Below, piece after piece: positions 28,707-36,436 of a DNA stretch of 64,000 bases (position 1 is its first letter; each line of letters begins with the position of its first letter). This stretch comes from an uncultured Acidimicrobiaceae bacterium (GTDB lineage: Bacteria; Actinomycetota; Acidimicrobiia; Acidimicrobiales; Ilumatobacteraceae): assembly GCA_903919455.1 (NCBI GenBank), contig CAIXIJ010000008.1:1-64000 (forward strand), given 5' to 3'. The notes beneath the pieces were generated by a model. It made no database searches. It was given only the letters and a program-made list of their open reading frames with translations, and was not told where the DNA came from. Position numbers and translations under genes: made by a program.

Positions 28707-30296
28707 TCAGCGAAGGCGACTGGGTCGGCGGCGCAACGACAGCACCAGGTAACCGAGATCCAGGAACATCAGCGCGATCAGCACCTGCACCAGCGTGGAG
28801 CCCGCACCGGTGACCACCAGTTGGCCGGGCGTCGTGGTGCTGGGTGCCTCGGACGCAACTTGGGTAGTGGTGGTGGCCGGGATGGTGGTGGTGGCCGTCG
28901 ACACGCCCACGGCCTTCGTGCTCACGAACGACGTCGGCTTGGTGGGCTTGCACACGAACACCACCGGGCTGGGCAGGCCGATCTTCACACTCACATTGGC
29001 GCCGTACAGACGGAAGTCGATCTTGCCGGTGCGAGCGGTCCAGTGCATGGTCGGCACATCAAACTTCACCGTGGACGGCAACGCCTGGCCGTTCGAGGTC
29101 TTCACCGGAATCACCAGAGCGATGTTGTCGGCGTCTTGCGTGACCTGGACCGTGTTCGTGCCGGTGATGGCAAGGTCGAGGGTGCCGTCGATCGAGGTGC
29201 CGGGATTGATGAGACCGAAGTTGATGCCGGTCTGGAACACGCCGGCCGGGATGGTGACGCTCCACTTCATCTTCGAAAGGTCGAACTTCGAGTCGGCCGT
29301 CACTTCGCCCGGGGCGGTGCCCGTGGCCGTGAAGGTGAGTTCGCTGAGGTCGGGCGTCACGCTGTTCTTGCAGGAGGTGACGTAGTTACCCGAGCCAGCA
29401 ACCGGCGGCGGCAGCGTGGTGGTGGTAGCGGGCACCGTGGTGGCCGGAGCCGTCGTTGCCGGCGTCGTGGTGGCAGGGGCCGTGGTTGCCGGAGCAGTGG
29501 TGCCCGGAGTCGTGGTACCCGACGGGATGGTGGTGGTGGATCCGGCCACGGTGGTGGTGGTGCCACCGCCGACGGATGCCGAGGTCGTTGCGAAGATGCC
29601 GGGGGTGGACGGGGTGAAGGATGCGCCACCCACGGCCGAGGTGCCGCCCTGGCAGTCGAAGTTGGCCTTGATGAGGCCGCCGGCCACCTGAGCGCTGATG
29701 AACACACCACCGGCCGGGTTGGTCACGCCACCCGATACCTGCCCTGCGGCAATGGGCGGAAGCGAACCGGGCCCGCCCTGTGAGAAGTTCACTGCTCCGC
29801 CGGTCGGCGTCCAGGCCGTGTCGGGCAGGCTGACGTCGACATTGAGGGGAGTGGCGTTCTCGTCGCCATTACCCGGAATGCCATTCGGGTCGGTGATCGT
29901 GGTGGTGACCGTGGTGGAGAACTGCACCATCTTCTTCACGTCCGAGGTGCCGGTGGCGGTGAGCGACACCCATCCCTTCACCGGGATGGAGTTGTTACCA
30001 ACCGTCAACAAACCGAGGTTGTAGCCGGCAATCAACAGCGTGGCAGGAACGGCTGCAGTGAACTTCACACCACTCAGAGTGACGGAGTTCGCCGGATCGG
30101 CGGCGCCACTCCACGCGGCGGTTCCCGTCAAGCCCACGCCGATGTCGCTAAATGTGCCGGTGGCGTTGCTCTTGCATGAATTTGTGGCAGCAAGTGCCAC
30201 AGCTGTGCGACGAGTTGGCCCCACGACGATCGCTGCCGCGAGGGCAATCGATAGCATGACCAGCACGATGACGGCCCCGCGTTGGTGGCTTCGCAT
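28707..30296 (-). CDS. secreted/surface protein, duplicated beta-domain, Thr/Pro-rich linker, LPxTG-like C-terminal anchor
   Basis: N-terminal signal MRSHQRGAVIVLVMLSIALAAAIVVG; TTTPATTAPATTVPATTT linker; C-term QLVVTGAGSTLVQVLIALMFLDLGYLVLSLRRRPSRLR. Confidence 0.75.
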   Translation of the reverse strand: MRSHQRGAVIVLVMLSIALAAAIVVGPTRRTAVALAATNSCKSNATGTFSDIGVGLTGTAAWSGAADPANSVTLSGVKFTAAVPATLLIAGYNLGLLTVGNNSIPVKGWVSLTATGTSDVKKMVQFSTTVTTTITDPNGIPGNGDENATPLNVDVSLPDTAWTPTGGAVNFSQGGPGSLPPIAAGQVSGGVTNPAGGVFISAQVAGGLIKANFDCQGGTSAVGGASFTPSTPGIFATTSASVGGGTTTTVAGSTTTIPSGTTTPGTTAPATTAPATTTPATTAPATTVPATTTTLPPPVAGSGNYVTSCKNSVTPDLSELTFTATGTAPGEVTADSKFDLSKMKWSVTIPAGVFQTGINFGLINPGTSIDGTLDLAITGTNTVQVTQDADNIALVIPVKTSNGQALPSTVKFDVPTMHWTARTGKIDFRLYGANVSVKIGLPSPVVFVCKPTKPTSFVSTKAVGVSTATTTIPATTTTQVASEAPSTTTPGQLVVTGAGSTLVQVLIALMFLDLGYLVLSLRRRPSRLR

Positions 30297-30652
30297 GATC
30301 GTTCCCCTTGAAACTGTGTGGCTCGGAGACCGCCTCCCCAGGCAGTCAGGCAGCAGTTCACACCCCATTCAGGGCCGGTGTCAAGGGCCTACGACTTTTG
30401 GTAACTGTCAAGATGCCCAAAAGATGTCCTTGACGACCGACCGCACTGGGCTGGTATGTTGCCCACTGTCTCACCACCAACAGTGACGAGACACACCACG
30501 GGAGGGGACGTCGGTAGACGACTCGTGGATGCGATGGGGACAGTTGATACGACAGCCACGGTTTACCGTTCTGTCGGCTCGTCGCATTCCGGGTGTACCC
30601 ACACGATCTCACCGGTGGATGAAGTTCCGAGCCACCAACATCGAACGAGGGA

Positions 30653-32437
30653 GTGATCCTCTTGCAAGCATCCACTCGGCGTAAAAGCGCCATCGCAGCA
30701 GTCGCCGGTCTGTTGACCGCGCTGGTTGCGGTCGGAGTCACCACGGGAACAGCGTCTGCTGCGCCCGGAACGCTCACGACCGTCAACACCTGCCAGAACA
30801 ACGCCAACGGCAACTGGGCCGACATCTCCTGGACCCTGAACGGTACGGCGTCGCCGAACCCGCAGACGCTCGGCTCGGGGGACGTCACCCTGTCCGGCGG
30901 CAGCATCGTCGGCGAGATTCCGGCCGCCATTCTGGTGGCCGGTTACAACCTCGGCGTGCTCAGCGTCGGCACGAACCCGATCCCCACCAAGATCTGGGTC
31001 GGCCGTTCGGCCAGCAACGTCGACACCGGCGCAGGCGTGAAGGGCACGCTCACGAAGGTCGACGTGCTCGATCTTCCGTCGCAGCTGTCCACCGTCATCA
31101 CCGACCCGGACGGCGTGCCCGGTGGCACCGGCCCCGGCGGCGCTGACGAGACGGCCACGCCCATCAGCGTGGACCGGCCGCTGCCCGACTGGACGGTCAC
31201 CCCGCTCGGCGGCAACGTGGAGTTCAAGCAGGCTGGCCCCGGCGCCATCGGCCCGCTTCCCATCGGCGCTGGTGGCGCCAACACCGCCACCACCGGCAGC
31301 ATCTTCACCCAGTCCGTCGTCGCCGGCGGTCTGATCAAGGTGAACTTCGACTGCCAGCCCGGTGCGTCGGTTGCCGCTGTGCCGCCGTCCACCACCACCT
31401 CGTTCACGGCTGCTGCCAGCATCGGTGCGTTTGAGACCGGTGTTGTCGTGGCGCCGCCCACCGCCCCGGTCTGCACCAACGAGACGCTCAGCGTCGGCGT
31501 GGGTCAGAACTCCACGGTGGACCTCACCAACAACTGCACCGATGTGAACGAGGCGCAGGGTGGCGGTAGCCCCTTCACCTACCAGATCGGCGCAGTTTCG
31601 GCTGGCACGCTCACCCCGACCGCAACGGCCGGCATCTACACCTACGCCGCACCGGCAACCGACCCGGGCGCTCCGGTCGTCGTGAACTTCACGGCCACCG
31701 ACGCAACGGGCCTCGTCAGCGGCACGGCCACCATCACCGCCACCATCCTGGCCAACACCTGTGATGCCACCTTGGCTTCCTGCAACCTCACCGAGATCAT
31801 CGTGCAGCCGGTCATCGGCACCACCATGAAGCTCGAGAAGGTTCCCGGTGTGGTCGTCATGTCGCCGGTCATCTTGAACGGTCGTGAGCAGGTCTCCACC
31901 GGTGCGCTGCAGACCCTCACGGTCACCAACGCCCGCGGTACTGCCGCTGCATGGTCGGTCACGGCCTACGCCACCGACCTCGGTGCAGCAGGTGCACCCA
32001 CGTTCTCGCCGCTGCCCGGCGTGACCGTGGCGCTCTGCTCGCGAGCCGGTGCCGGTCCGCTGATCGCCAACCCGGTGCTCGCCGCAACGGTCGCCAGCGA
32101 TCGTCTCTGCATCCCCGGCGACAACCTCGGTTGGACGCCCAGCGCCGCCATCACCCACAACGACATCCCCGGTGATGTCGCCCAGGTGACCGCCGGTGCC
32201 GCCAGCGCCCCGACCCCCGCCGACTGGCTGGCCGGTCTGGTTACCGCGGGCAACACCAACGACCCTGGCGTCGGCGTGGACGGCCTCGGCGGTCTGCTCG
32301 GCTCGAGGACGCTGTGCTCCGCCCCGGTGAACCACTCGGGTGGCACGTTCACCTGCAACGCCTCCCTGTACCTCGGTGTCCCGGCTTCGGCCGGCGCCGG
32401 TCAGTACACCGGTGGCATCGTGCTGACGCTCGCCTGA
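30653..32437 (+). CDS. WxL-domain-like secreted surface protein
   Basis: Signal peptide …AGLLTALVAVGVTTGTASAAPG; C-term LTVTNARGTAAAWSVTAYATDL … QYTGGIVLTLA resembles the WxL domain; N-terminal domain paralogous to the divergent gene; likely start TTG 30662. Confidence 0.75.
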   Translation: MILLQASTRRKSAIAAVAGLLTALVAVGVTTGTASAAPGTLTTVNTCQNNANGNWADISWTLNGTASPNPQTLGSGDVTLSGGSIVGEIPAAILVAGYNLGVLSVGTNPIPTKIWVGRSASNVDTGAGVKGTLTKVDVLDLPSQLSTVITDPDGVPGGTGPGGADETATPISVDRPLPDWTVTPLGGNVEFKQAGPGAIGPLPIGAGGANTATTGSIFTQSVVAGGLIKVNFDCQPGASVAAVPPSTTTSFTAAASIGAFETGVVVAPPTAPVCTNETLSVGVGQNSTVDLTNNCTDVNEAQGGGSPFTYQIGAVSAGTLTPTATAGIYTYAAPATDPGAPVVVNFTATDATGLVSGTATITATILANTCDATLASCNLTEIIVQPVIGTTMKLEKVPGVVVMSPVILNGREQVSTGALQTLTVTNARGTAAAWSVTAYATDLGAAGAPTFSPLPGVTVALCSRAGAGPLIANPVLAATVASDRLCIPGDNLGWTPSAAITHNDIPGDVAQVTAGAASAPTPADWLAGLVTAGNTNDPGVGVDGLGGLLGSRTLCSAPVNHSGGTFTCNASLYLGVPASAGAGQYTGGIVLTLA

Positions 32438-32479
32438 CATTCGTCGGGTAGGCAAGCACACCTGAAGTTCAGTAACTGA

Positions 32480-32515
32480 GCGGGTGGGATCCCGGGCAAC
32501 CGGGGTCCCACCCGC
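32480..32515 (+). terminator. stem-loop after WxL-like gene
   Basis: GCGGGTGGGATCCCGGGCAACCGGGGTCCCACCCGC. Confidence 0.65.
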
Positions 32516-32578
32516 TTCTCACTGAAAGACCGTTCAACTGCAGCGGCTTTCTCACGAAGCAAAAGGACAGGACGACAC

Positions 32579-33613
32579 GTGGAGCTACGACGGAAGCGAA
32601 ACGGAACAATGGGTGCGCTGGCGCTGAGCGCCGTGCTGCTGTTCGGGGCCTTCACCCCTGCGTCGGCCATCTCACCGGCCTCGATCTCTCCGGCCGCCAC
32701 CACGCCCCCCAGCGACAGCGTGCCGGCCGACGAAACCGCTCCGAGCGATGCGGGCGCCTTCGCTGTGCGCCCCTACAGCTCCGATGGAGTAGGCGGGCGC
32801 GACTATTTCATCTACACGCTGAAGACCGGCACGGTCTACGGCGACAAGGTCACGATCTCCAACGACAGCGACCAGGAAGCCACCTACGCCGTCTACGCCA
32901 CGGATGCGGTGAACACCAACGACGGTTCCTTCAGCCTGCTGCGCGAGGAAGATAAGCCCAAGGACGTTGGTTCCTGGGTAGAGCTCGGCGCCACGCAGTA
33001 CACCCTGAAGCCGCACACCGAGGTGACCATTCCCTTCAGCGTCACCGTGCCGAACGACGCAATTTCGGGCGACCACGTGGGTGCCATCGTGGCCCAGAAG
33101 ATCGCCGACCCCTCCAACCCGAATGGCATCGGCCTGAACGTGCGCGTGCGCGTCGGGGCCCGGCTGTATGTGCGCATCGAAGGCGCCACCAACCCATCGT
33201 TGGCCGTCGACTCGTTCACGATGACCTACGACACCCCTGCCAATCCGTTCGGCACCGGCACTGCGAAGGTGGAGTACACGCTCACCAACACCGGCAACGT
33301 GCGCCTCACGCCCACCGCCACCTTGAAGCTTGCCGGTGTCTTCGGTCTGGGCGAGAAGAACTTCCCCGACCGAGAGATACCCGAGCTTCTCCCGGGCAAC
33401 TCCATCCAGATCGCCGAAGTGATGCTCGACGTGAAGCCGTATCTGCGGCTCACCGCCGATCTCGACATCACAGCCCCGGACGAAGCCGTTGCCGTCCACA
33501 GCACCATCACCCAGTGGGCCATTCCCTGGCTCGGCGTCGCAGTGATAGCGCTCATCATCGTGGCCTTGATGGTCCGCAGCATCGTCAAGCGGCGTAAGCG
33601 GGCAACTGCATGA
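32579..33613 (+). CDS. DUF916-like (WxL-interacting protein) membrane-anchored protein
   Basis: FAVRPYSSDGVGGRDYFIYTLKTGTVYGDKVTISNDSDQEATYAVYATDA…ISGDHVGAIVAQ, C-terminal TM plus RRKRATA. Confidence 0.78.
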   Translation: MELRRKRNGTMGALALSAVLLFGAFTPASAISPASISPAATTPPSDSVPADETAPSDAGAFAVRPYSSDGVGGRDYFIYTLKTGTVYGDKVTISNDSDQEATYAVYATDAVNTNDGSFSLLREEDKPKDVGSWVELGATQYTLKPHTEVTIPFSVTVPNDAISGDHVGAIVAQKIADPSNPNGIGLNVRVRVGARLYVRIEGATNPSLAVDSFTMTYDTPANPFGTGTAKVEYTLTNTGNVRLTPTATLKLAGVFGLGEKNFPDREIPELLPGNSIQIAEVMLDVKPYLRLTADLDITAPDEAVAVHSTITQWAIPWLGVAVIALIIVALMVRSIVKRRKRATA

Positions 33614-34992
33614 TCTCGGGTCGGACTCGGGCGATGTGGGCGACGTACCTCGCCAGCACCATGCTGGCGGTGGTGTCGATTGTCGCGCCCGTAGCCGCAG
33701 CATTGCCCGCCGCCGCCCCGCCGTCAGCCGACGACAGCGCCGCTGCCGCGGCACCTGCCATCGCTATCGAAGACCAACTCTTCAGCGAGCGAGAAGTGCA
33801 GGACGGAGCCACATTCAAGGTGGCCGGCACGGGATGGCCCGCCGACACCCTCATCCAGCTTGAAGTCTGTGGCGCCGAGGCCCGTTCCGGTACCAGCGAT
33901 TGCGCCTCCGACGCCGCCCAAGTGGTGGCCAGCAACGTCAGGGGAACGTTCGAGGGACGACTCGCGTTGGTCGTACCTCCGTCGCCATGCCCTTGCGTGG
34001 TGCGCGCGCTCAGCCAGACCACCACCGACACCGCACTCACCCCCATCGAGATCCCTGGTGCACCCACCTCGCACGCCGGTGACGGCGACATCACGGCACC
34101 CGCCCTTCGGCGTCTCGAAGCCTCGAACGTGGAACTCAGCGGTAGCGACAACCTGCGCACCTGGATGGGCGCCAGCCCGCAGCGCGTGTTCATGTTCGAG
34201 TTGAAGAACACCGGGTCGGTGGCCGTCAACAACGCAACCGTCACGATGACTGCCGGCCCATCGGATAACCCGACCGGCTTCGTGAAGCCGGTGAAGATCG
34301 AGCGCATGGAGGTGGGGCAGACACGGAAGATCTCCGTGCCCATCGAGTTCCCCAACCTCTCCTACGGCGAGCAATCGGTGCGGGCCACGCTGAACGGCAC
34401 CTCGATGCCCACCACCTTCGCGGCCACCACCACCACACACCCCTGGCTGGTGATCATCATTCCGATCGTGGTGGTCCTGCAGTTGCTGTTGCTGCTCATC
34501 CGCAATGCGCTACGCCGGCGCCTGAATGAGGCCGACGTCGTGCCTGCAGAGGTGGATCCTTCCATCCCGGCCGACGACTCGCTGATCTGCGTCGTGGAGT
34601 TCACCGAGGCAGACCCGAATGCCACGCCGAACGTGCAGCACCGAACCCAGGTGGTGCGCAGCATCAACGAAGTGCGCCAGATGGTGCTCGACGCCCTGAA
34701 GGTGGACGAGCAGGACCAACCGGTCGCCGTCGCCGGGCCCGAGCGGGTGATCAACACCATCACGGTGCTTGCCGATGCCGATGCACGCGTAGGCGCCTCC
34801 CACCACGCGTGCGATGTGCTCTGCACCTGGATTGAAAGCACCTACACCAACAGTTCGCACCCGTCGGCGCGTTCCCTCACGCTTCGCCGCCACAACAGTG
34901 GCACCAGCACGAACGTGTCCGCAGCGTCGGGGCTGGGAATGGTGCCACTGTCGGTGCTGGTTCGCGCCCCACACATTCGGGCCGCGGCCTGA
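33610..34992 (+). CDS. secreted single-TM protein of WxL locus, unknown function
   Basis: ATGA overlap with DUF916-like gene; signal peptide, Ig-like ectodomain FKVAGTGWPADTLIQLEVCG, TM LVIIIPIVVVLQLLLLLI, cytoplasmic C-domain. Confidence 0.7.
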   Translation: MISGRTRAMWATYLASTMLAVVSIVAPVAAALPAAAPPSADDSAAAAAPAIAIEDQLFSEREVQDGATFKVAGTGWPADTLIQLEVCGAEARSGTSDCASDAAQVVASNVRGTFEGRLALVVPPSPCPCVVRALSQTTTDTALTPIEIPGAPTSHAGDGDITAPALRRLEASNVELSGSDNLRTWMGASPQRVFMFELKNTGSVAVNNATVTMTAGPSDNPTGFVKPVKIERMEVGQTRKISVPIEFPNLSYGEQSVRATLNGTSMPTTFAATTTTHPWLVIIIPIVVVLQLLLLLIRNALRRRLNEADVVPAEVDPSIPADDSLICVVEFTEADPNATPNVQHRTQVVRSINEVRQMVLDALKVDEQDQPVAVAGPERVINTITVLADADARVGASHHACDVLCTWIESTYTNSSHPSARSLTLRRHNSGTSTNVSAASGLGMVPLSVLVRAPHIRAAA

Positions 34993-35068: not shown

Positions 35069-35254
35069 CCTCCGAGCCACCGGAGAACGTCGCCATTGTA
35101 ACGACGACGATGTCGGATAGGCCAGAGCCGTCCGGTGAGAATCTGGTGAGCGCAAACTCGGCGCTGCGGCCCGGGCTAACGCACCCAGCGCGTGCGAAGC
35201 GATACGCTCGGCGTCGCCGTCACGCGGCCATCAGGTGATGGGGAGCCACCAACC

Positions 35255-36436
35255 ATGGGTCTGTTCAGCAAGAAGCCAAAGCCGAGCACCAGCGCCACCA
35301 ACGACGACGCGCCCGCGGGGGCGATGCCGGCCCCGACACCCCAGGCGGCACCCGTCGCAACTCCCGCTCCGCCGCGTGCCCCTGCACCGAATCCAGCGGC
35401 GCCGCCCGCCGCTGTTGGTTGGGGGTCGAAGAAGTCCAAGACGACCGCCATCGACCCTGTCGACTTCCTGAACCTCCGAGCTGAGTTGATGGAGGTGAAA
35501 GCCCGCCTGATGGCAGCCGAGCAATCGCGCGCCATCGTCGAGAGCCGCCTGGCAGCGCTCGATGCCACGGCGCTCGCATTGTCCTCAGATCAGGCAGGCA
35601 CCAGCGGTGCCGCCGAACGCCTGGCCGACCTGGAAGCGCGAGTGCTCCACATCGGTAACGGCGACGACGCCGAAGTCCTTGCGAAGATCGCCATGCTCGA
35701 GGCCCAGGTGGCCGAAGCCGCCGCCACCGCCGAAGCGGCTCGGGCCGAAGCCGCAGCCAAGCCCGAGGTGGTCGCGCCGTCGCCGTTGCTCGGCGCCATG
35801 CCCACAGCAGCACCCGACCCTGAGATGGCCGCCAAGCTCGACGCCATCGGGCTTCGCCTGTACGAACTCGACGACCTTGCACTGCGTGTCGCCCAGATCG
35901 ATGTGCTCACCGGTCAGCTCTCGCAGCTCAATGCCCGGGTCACCGCACAGGCCGAGTTTGGGGCGCAACTCAGCGCCATGCGCGATCGAATCACCGAACT
36001 GCAGACGGCACCGGAGACCGGCGACCAGAATGCCACTGCCACCAACGACCCCGAACTTCGCGACCAGATGACCGGCCTCACCACTCGCCTGGCAGCCACC
36101 GAGGCGCTGGCGGCGCAACTCGGCGCCCTCGCCGAGCGAGTTGCCACCACCGACGCCAACGCCCAGCAGACCACGGCGCAGTTGGCAGCGCTCGAGCAGC
36201 GCGTCGATTCGGTGGGTACCGAACTGGCCAACCAGATCAGCGAGCTGGGTCGCGACATCGACGGCCTTGCCGAGCGCACCGCCGACGTTGCATCCGGCAC
36301 GGTGAGCGACGAAGTGATGGCGGCGCTGCGCAGCGGGCAGATCAAGCTCGCCAACGAACAGGCCCGCTACGAGATCGCCTTCCGCGAAGACCTCGCCGCG
36401 CTCGCCGAGCACGTCCGCCGCCAACCCCGCGAATAA
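35255..36436 (+). CDS. coiled-coil protein, unknown function
   Basis: Pro/Ala-rich N-terminus then long heptad-like Ala/Glu/Leu helices. Confidence 0.7.
   Translation: MGLFSKKPKPSTSATNDDAPAGAMPAPTPQAAPVATPAPPRAPAPNPAAPPAAVGWGSKKSKTTAIDPVDFLNLRAELMEVKARLMAAEQSRAIVESRLAALDATALALSSDQAGTSGAAERLADLEARVLHIGNGDDAEVLAKIAMLEAQVAEAAATAEAARAEAAAKPEVVAPSPLLGAMPTAAPDPEMAAKLDAIGLRLYELDDLALRVAQIDVLTGQLSQLNARVTAQAEFGAQLSAMRDRITELQTAPETGDQNATATNDPELRDQMTGLTTRLAATEALAAQLGALAERVATTDANAQQTTAQLAALEQRVDSVGTELANQISELGRDIDGLAERTADVASGTVSDEVMAALRSGQIKLANEQARYEIAFREDLAALAEHVRRQPRE

Follow-up and report, generated by a model that had tools for sequence, protein, structure and literature searches.

A WxL, or cell-surface complex (Csc), gene cluster is defined by one WxL-interacting protein (WxLIP) and at least two WxL proteins encoded close together (PMC10599100). 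In the strict sense, the WxL domain contains a dual Trp-x-Leu motif (PMC10599100), and Asp-x-Arg-Gly stands before the first of the two (PMC1534035). Nearly all descriptions of these clusters come from Bacilli and interpret them as host-adhesion and virulence devices, in which the WxLIP helix may enter host membranes (PMC10599100), and more than 91% of WxL sequences are found in Firmicutes (PMC9772566). In the clusters of Lactobacillus plantarum and Enterococcus, CscA is the WxLIP, CscB and CscC are the WxL proteins and CscD is an LPxTG protein. Among the open-access papers searched, none joins WxL with Acidimicrobi-, which implies no claim about other papers, and nothing relevant joins the WxL domain, phosphate and PstS; DUF916 is joined with Actinobacteria in one paper, and the genes concerned sit in lactobacilli.

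Here we describe a four-gene locus, A-B-C-D, at positions 28707-34992 of a 64,000-nucleotide stretch (the window) of contig CAIXIJ010000008.1, which belongs to the 3.5-Mb acidimicrobial genome of an uncultured Acidimicrobiaceae bacterium. The locus probably encodes a cell-surface complex of the WxL/WxLIP (Csc) type in an actinobacterial variant, a reading to which we assign a probability of roughly 0.7. Like the Csc clusters, it places a WxLIP with a C-terminal transmembrane helix (TM) beside a secreted WxL-type protein, and it contains a protein with a sorting-signal-like end. Unlike them, it has a single WxL protein with degenerate motifs (WSV and LTL), whereas the Firmicute clusters have at least two; its LVxTG protein (A) is large and shares the N-terminal domain of B, whereas CscD is very short; and it encodes one more membrane protein, D, which is related to WxLIPs and carries a cytoplasmic domain. 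Actinomycete WxL-like/DUF916 pairs (plasmids of Streptomyces, Clavibacter, Cellulosimicrobium and Arthrobacter, and locus L077) resemble it in having the WxL-like gene directly before the WxLIP gene, a degenerate second motif and an intergenic hairpin (5 of 5), but no D is seen there and several of them adjoin glycoside hydrolases.

Components of the A-B-C-D locus

Gene C (32579..33613, plus strand) encodes a protein with a DUF916 domain (32798-33094), which matches PF06030 with 47.6 bits against a cut-off of 27.3 (E 2.1e-12). When PDB sequences are searched with C by phmmer, the sole credible relative is EfmWxLIP1 of Enterococcus faecium (PDB 9i1y, 9i25; E 1.5e-4), and a profile of 21 C homologs matches the DUF916 domain of this protein with an E value of 4.9e-10. 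An N-terminal hydrophobic stretch, corresponding to a signal peptide, and a C-terminal TM, LGVAVIALIIVALMVRSIVKRRKRATA, which is followed by a basic tail, are read from the sequence. These results identify C, at the sequence level, as a WxLIP, in agreement with the initial annotation, which had proposed a DUF916-like WxL-interacting protein ending in a TM. The second domain of C is immunoglobulin (Ig)-like (~33191-33508).

Gene B (30653..32437, plus strand, GTG start) encodes a secreted protein that consists of an A-like N-terminal domain, a middle domain and a C-terminal WxL-like domain (31889..32434). PF13731 is the only Pfam family matched by the latter domain of the window sequence, below threshold, and is matched by 9 of 16 relatives of B (best E 8e-5). 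A profile of four B proteins from loci with the A-B-C-D gene order (type 1) is aligned by hhalign with PF13731-positive actinobacterial proteins at a probability of 96.3% and with actinomycete WxL-like proteins, an independent WxL set, at 98.6%; all of the 40 column-shuffled profiles per set give at most 3.6%. Motif 1, NARGTAAAWSV (31928-31960, plus strand), retains R, G and W in register with D-x-R-G before W-x-L, with D changed to N and L to V. The corresponding motif of the members of the sister lineage (type 2) is mostly DTRD....W-x-V/L. Motif 2, YTGGIVLTL (32405-32431, plus strand), is spaced 157 residues from motif 1 and has L in place of W, a position at which most relatives have L, F or I. 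These results indicate that the C-terminus of B is homologous to the WxL domain, a relationship that is visible by family profiles only. B alone carries a WxL-type domain, and PF13731 is matched nowhere else in the genome. Outside this genome, the C-terminal matches that an order-wide search with B gives are all weak; few candidates were scored per genome, and absence is not shown by this search. A profile of the C-terminal domain of B gives only chance matches among PDB sequences.

Gene D (33610..34992, plus strand), which overlaps C by ATGA, encodes a Cys-rich Ig-like domain (33757-34047) with the conserved cysteines C..DC..CPC, a second Ig-like domain (Ig2, 34114-34437), a TM (34444-34533) and a cytoplasmic domain (34543-34989). 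Thus, the Ig-like ectodomain, the TM and the cytoplasmic part previously noted for D are all present, and the ectodomain is composed of two Ig-like domains. The Ig2 and TM regions of D are aligned with the same region of C by hhalign at 96.8% (E 2.9e-10), and a D profile matches C genes with E values down to 4.5e-9. These alignments indicate by sequence comparison that C and D share a homologous membrane-proximal Ig+TM module, to which the second domain of C belongs. Searches of Pfam and PDB reveal no relative of the cytoplasmic domain of D. The long form of this domain is conserved and can be clearly recognised in type-1 orthologs alone, and type-2 D proteins do not have it. The suggestion that D could link the surface complex to the cell interior is therefore compatible with the type-1 loci, but is confined to this variant. 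The likeness of the first domain of D to neocarzinostatin (24.5 bits, cut-off 25) is read as a common Ig-like fold and not as an antibiotic carrier. The fold matches of D to transglutaminase, RbmA and WxLIP have low TM-scores and reflect a generic tandem-Ig pattern, from which no function is deduced.

The three open reading frames B, C and D and the C-D overlap are located as initially annotated. The annotated interval also holds gene A (28707..30368, minus strand; likely start near 30296, MRSHQRG...), which was left undiscussed and is a fourth part of the system. A is divergent from B and encodes a secreted protein with two beta-rich domains and Thr/Pro-rich linkers, whose N-terminal domain is 39-42% identical to that of B. 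This N-terminal domain has no match in Pfam or among the plasmids, and the second domain of A resembles DUF6801 weakly (E 0.007, below cut-off). A ends with LVVTG, a hydrophobic stretch and RRR, a sorting-signal-like end read from the sequence, LVVTGAGSTLVQVLIALMFLDLGYLVLSLRRRPSRLR (28710..28820, minus strand), and the LVxTG-hydrophobic-arginine arrangement is kept in the four sequences compared (window, L044, L045 and L121). Because A has its N-terminal domain in common with B and its sorting-like end is conserved, it is assigned on sequence grounds to the system. An LPxTG-type protein is frequent but not obligatory in Csc clusters, and the genome has four sortase genes at other places.

A near-perfect hairpin (32478..32517, plus strand) with an 18-bp stem, a 4-nt loop and no T tract lies between B and C. 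Such a hairpin is found between the WxL and WxLIP genes of 19 of 19 loci (5 type 1 and 14 type 2), with a stem of 14-19 pairs, ~30-50 nt past the WxL stop codon; that of L056 was placed by its fold, slightly closer to the stop, and the automatic scan had picked another stem. Of 500 stretches of 120 nt drawn at random from the window, only three reach a 14-pair stem. The stem sequences vary among loci; in their alignment, which is imperfect, two-sided changes affect seven of the ten consensus pairs. At eight other actinobacterial loci checked, a strong hairpin is present in six (L064-L067, L070 and L077) and is not found in L069 and L071. The hairpin may act in attenuation or processing and so keep the secreted WxL protein more abundant than its membrane receptors, and it probably lowers expression of C-D relative to B, although hairpins at gene ends may be simple terminators. 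A promoter scan gave nothing.

The gene products are 88-98% identical in amino acid sequence to those of the near relative L044, with dN/dS values of ~0.07-0.25, of which the highest (gene B) depends on very few synonymous changes, and 59-71% identical to those of L045, with dN/dS values of ~0.26-0.35. On the basis of these values and of a gene order shared with four further genomes, A-D are considered to be real genes under selection. The B orthologs are 68-97% identical. Around B (30601-32700), a tract that is 94-99% identical to L044 in DNA lies inside a region that is otherwise ~89% identical, and the dS value of B against L044 is 0.05, while those of the other genes are ~0.3-0.5. The surface-protein gene B has likely undergone recent recombination between species. 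A coiled-coil protein is encoded directly after D (35192-36436) and occupies the same position in L044 (83% identity) and L121 (58%); it is possibly part of the system.

Distribution and the type-2 sister lineage

PF06030 is matched in 28 and PF13731 in 10 of the 298 genomes of a phylum sample, and within the family C is matched in 17 of 101 genomes and D in 23 of 224. Loci are designated here as L044 and so on, and genomes as G876 and so on. Five type-1 loci are found, in this genome and as L044, L045 (G375), L046 (G366) and L121 (G872). L044 is on the same contig as L120 of G876, and A of L046 is cut by the contig end. All five contain A-B-C-D, and the Nudix and MFS neighbours are also kept in L044, L045 and L121.

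The type-2 loci contain homologous WxL, WxLIP and D genes, the hairpin and an LPxTG-like protein with the N-terminal domain of the WxL protein. They differ from the locus of the window in that they are linked to Pst genes and a sortase, have a D that lacks the long cytoplasmic domain and form a separate clade. Their order is sortase (PF04203), PstB, a secreted protein with PstS-like motifs, WxL (with fn3), WxLIP and D, and the WxL-WxLIP-D set is kept where the contig is sufficient. Two permease genes and a PstS relative are present in 9 of 9 upstream stretches read, and PstSCAB directly follows in L048, L049, L051, L055 and L057. The PstS likeness of the secreted protein consists of motifs, and a profile comparison with true PstS failed to match. 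In L125 and L130, proteins with LPGTG or IPRTG signals precede the sortase, and one LPxTG-like upstream protein is related to the WxL protein through its N-terminal domain in the same way as A is to B. A type-2 copy is also present in this genome, on a 2.35-kb contig. The two types are separated in the tree of C with support values of 100/100 and 98/97. Thus, the conserved co-occurrence on which the initial annotation depended is observed in both types.

In L047-L058, L060, L122-L125 and L128-L136, a complete set of Pst-like transporter genes, sortase, LPxTG-like proteins and WxL-WxLIP-D lie in one long conserved region, which is possibly a wall-spanning phosphate-acquisition system. In L059 (1028-6799), a 1,923-amino-acid secreted protein (ThuA, GSDH, CBM6, PKD) has a WxL-like end and is encoded directly before WxLIP; predicted WxL-displayed enzymes therefore occur in the same family as the window genome. 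In L077 (358-1866), the WxL-like protein before WxLIP has an N-terminal part that resembles HtaA (haem-binding) by eye only.

Nature and possible role of the complex

We prefer the reading of A-B-C-D as a variant WxL/WxLIP complex, because C matches PF06030 and has EfmWxLIP1 as its only PDB relative, the WxL homology of B stands against shuffled controls, a module is common to C and D and an N-terminal domain to A and B, the LVxTG end of A is kept, synteny is conserved, sortases are encoded in this genome and the hairpin is present in 19 of 19 loci, and because the sister lineage keeps WxL-WxLIP-D and encodes a sortase and LPxTG-like proteins. Several observations weigh against this reading. 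The C-terminus of B scores 12.4 bits against PF13731 (E 0.16), below the curated cut-off of 25. Literal W-x-L is absent at both motifs, so that B is a homologous variant outside the strict WxL definition. The proposed WxL-like nature of B thus holds for the family, but not for the Pfam score or the literal motifs of B itself. One WxL protein is encoded per type-1 locus, where the definition of a Csc cluster asks for at least two. The predicted structure of B (20 sequences) has a mean pLDDT of 62 and, as a consequence of the poor model, no significant PDB fold match, and it is not used; the structural check suggested for the three proteins therefore gives no support for a WxL fold in B, and nothing is counted for D. 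The second domain of C, compared with EfmWxLIP1, is not recognised as DUF3324 (HBD) in the Pfam search. The LVxTG motif of A is non-canonical with respect to LPxTG, and no sortase is encoded nearby. The proposal would have been given up if there were no WxL/DUF916 match or no conserved co-occurrence, and neither is the case, because C is identified as a WxLIP, B is homologous to WxL proteins and the neighbourhoods are conserved.

The insignificant Pfam score of B and the commonness of Ig-like domains would also be expected if C were a generic DUF916/Ig membrane protein with B and D as unrelated neighbours. This explanation is very improbable, since the WxL homology exceeds that of shuffled controls, WxL-WxLIP-D is kept together in two clades of loci, and WxL-like genes stand just upstream of WxLIP in the four actinomycete genera as well. 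Adhesion to hosts or particles, with the WxLIP helix inserted in a foreign membrane, is the published model for gut commensals (PMC10599100), but is improbable for this locus, although less so than chance neighbourhood. Insertion of the helix into a host membrane fits badly because D, which has the same Ig+TM module as C, runs on into a conserved cytoplasmic domain; the residues following the TMs form basic tails, which would be expected if the membrane is that of the cell itself, and the sister lineage is located in transporter clusters.

The variant complex is most likely, as judged from its sequences, a wall-bound surface complex tethered to the membrane of its own cell. A would be exported and fixed covalently to the wall by one of the sortases of the genome. 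B would also be exported, and its WxL-like domain would attach it both to peptidoglycan and to C, whose DUF916 domain would be the binding site and may complete the WxL beta-sandwich, by analogy with the proposal for E. faecium. C and D would lie side by side in the membrane with their ectodomains outside and basic tails inside, the N-terminal domains of A and B would face outward and bind a putative ligand or each other, and the cytoplasmic domain of D would couple the complex to the cell interior.

A nutrient-capture or sensing device, in which ligand-binding proteins are kept in the wall by the WxL platform, which hands a ligand or signal inward through the Pst transporter in type 2 and the cytoplasmic domain of D in type 1, refines this reading and is not opposite to it. 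The sortase, PstB and PstS-like-motif protein directly before WxL-WxLIP-D, the upstream permease genes and PstS relative, and the five loci followed by PstSCAB favour it, and acquisition of nutrients (sugar) has been proposed for Csc complexes by Siezen et al. (PMC1534035). It is nevertheless tentative, because the locus of the window has no transporter, the PstS likeness is one of motifs without a profile match, and the ligand is not necessarily phosphate. Slightly more doubtful is the full proposal that the WxL platform of Acidimicrobiia spans the envelope as a device for capture or sensing, with wall proteins sharing a ligand domain, C and D in the cell's own membrane, and Pst or D inside.

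The diverged Acidimicrobiia version, with its membrane partner extending into the cytoplasm, and its Pst-linked sister lineage argue for a helix located in the membrane of the cell itself, with nutrient capture or envelope organisation as a possible role. If the proposal of a capture device is true, nutrient uptake or sensing would be the primary function of WxL systems, and host adhesion a secondary one.

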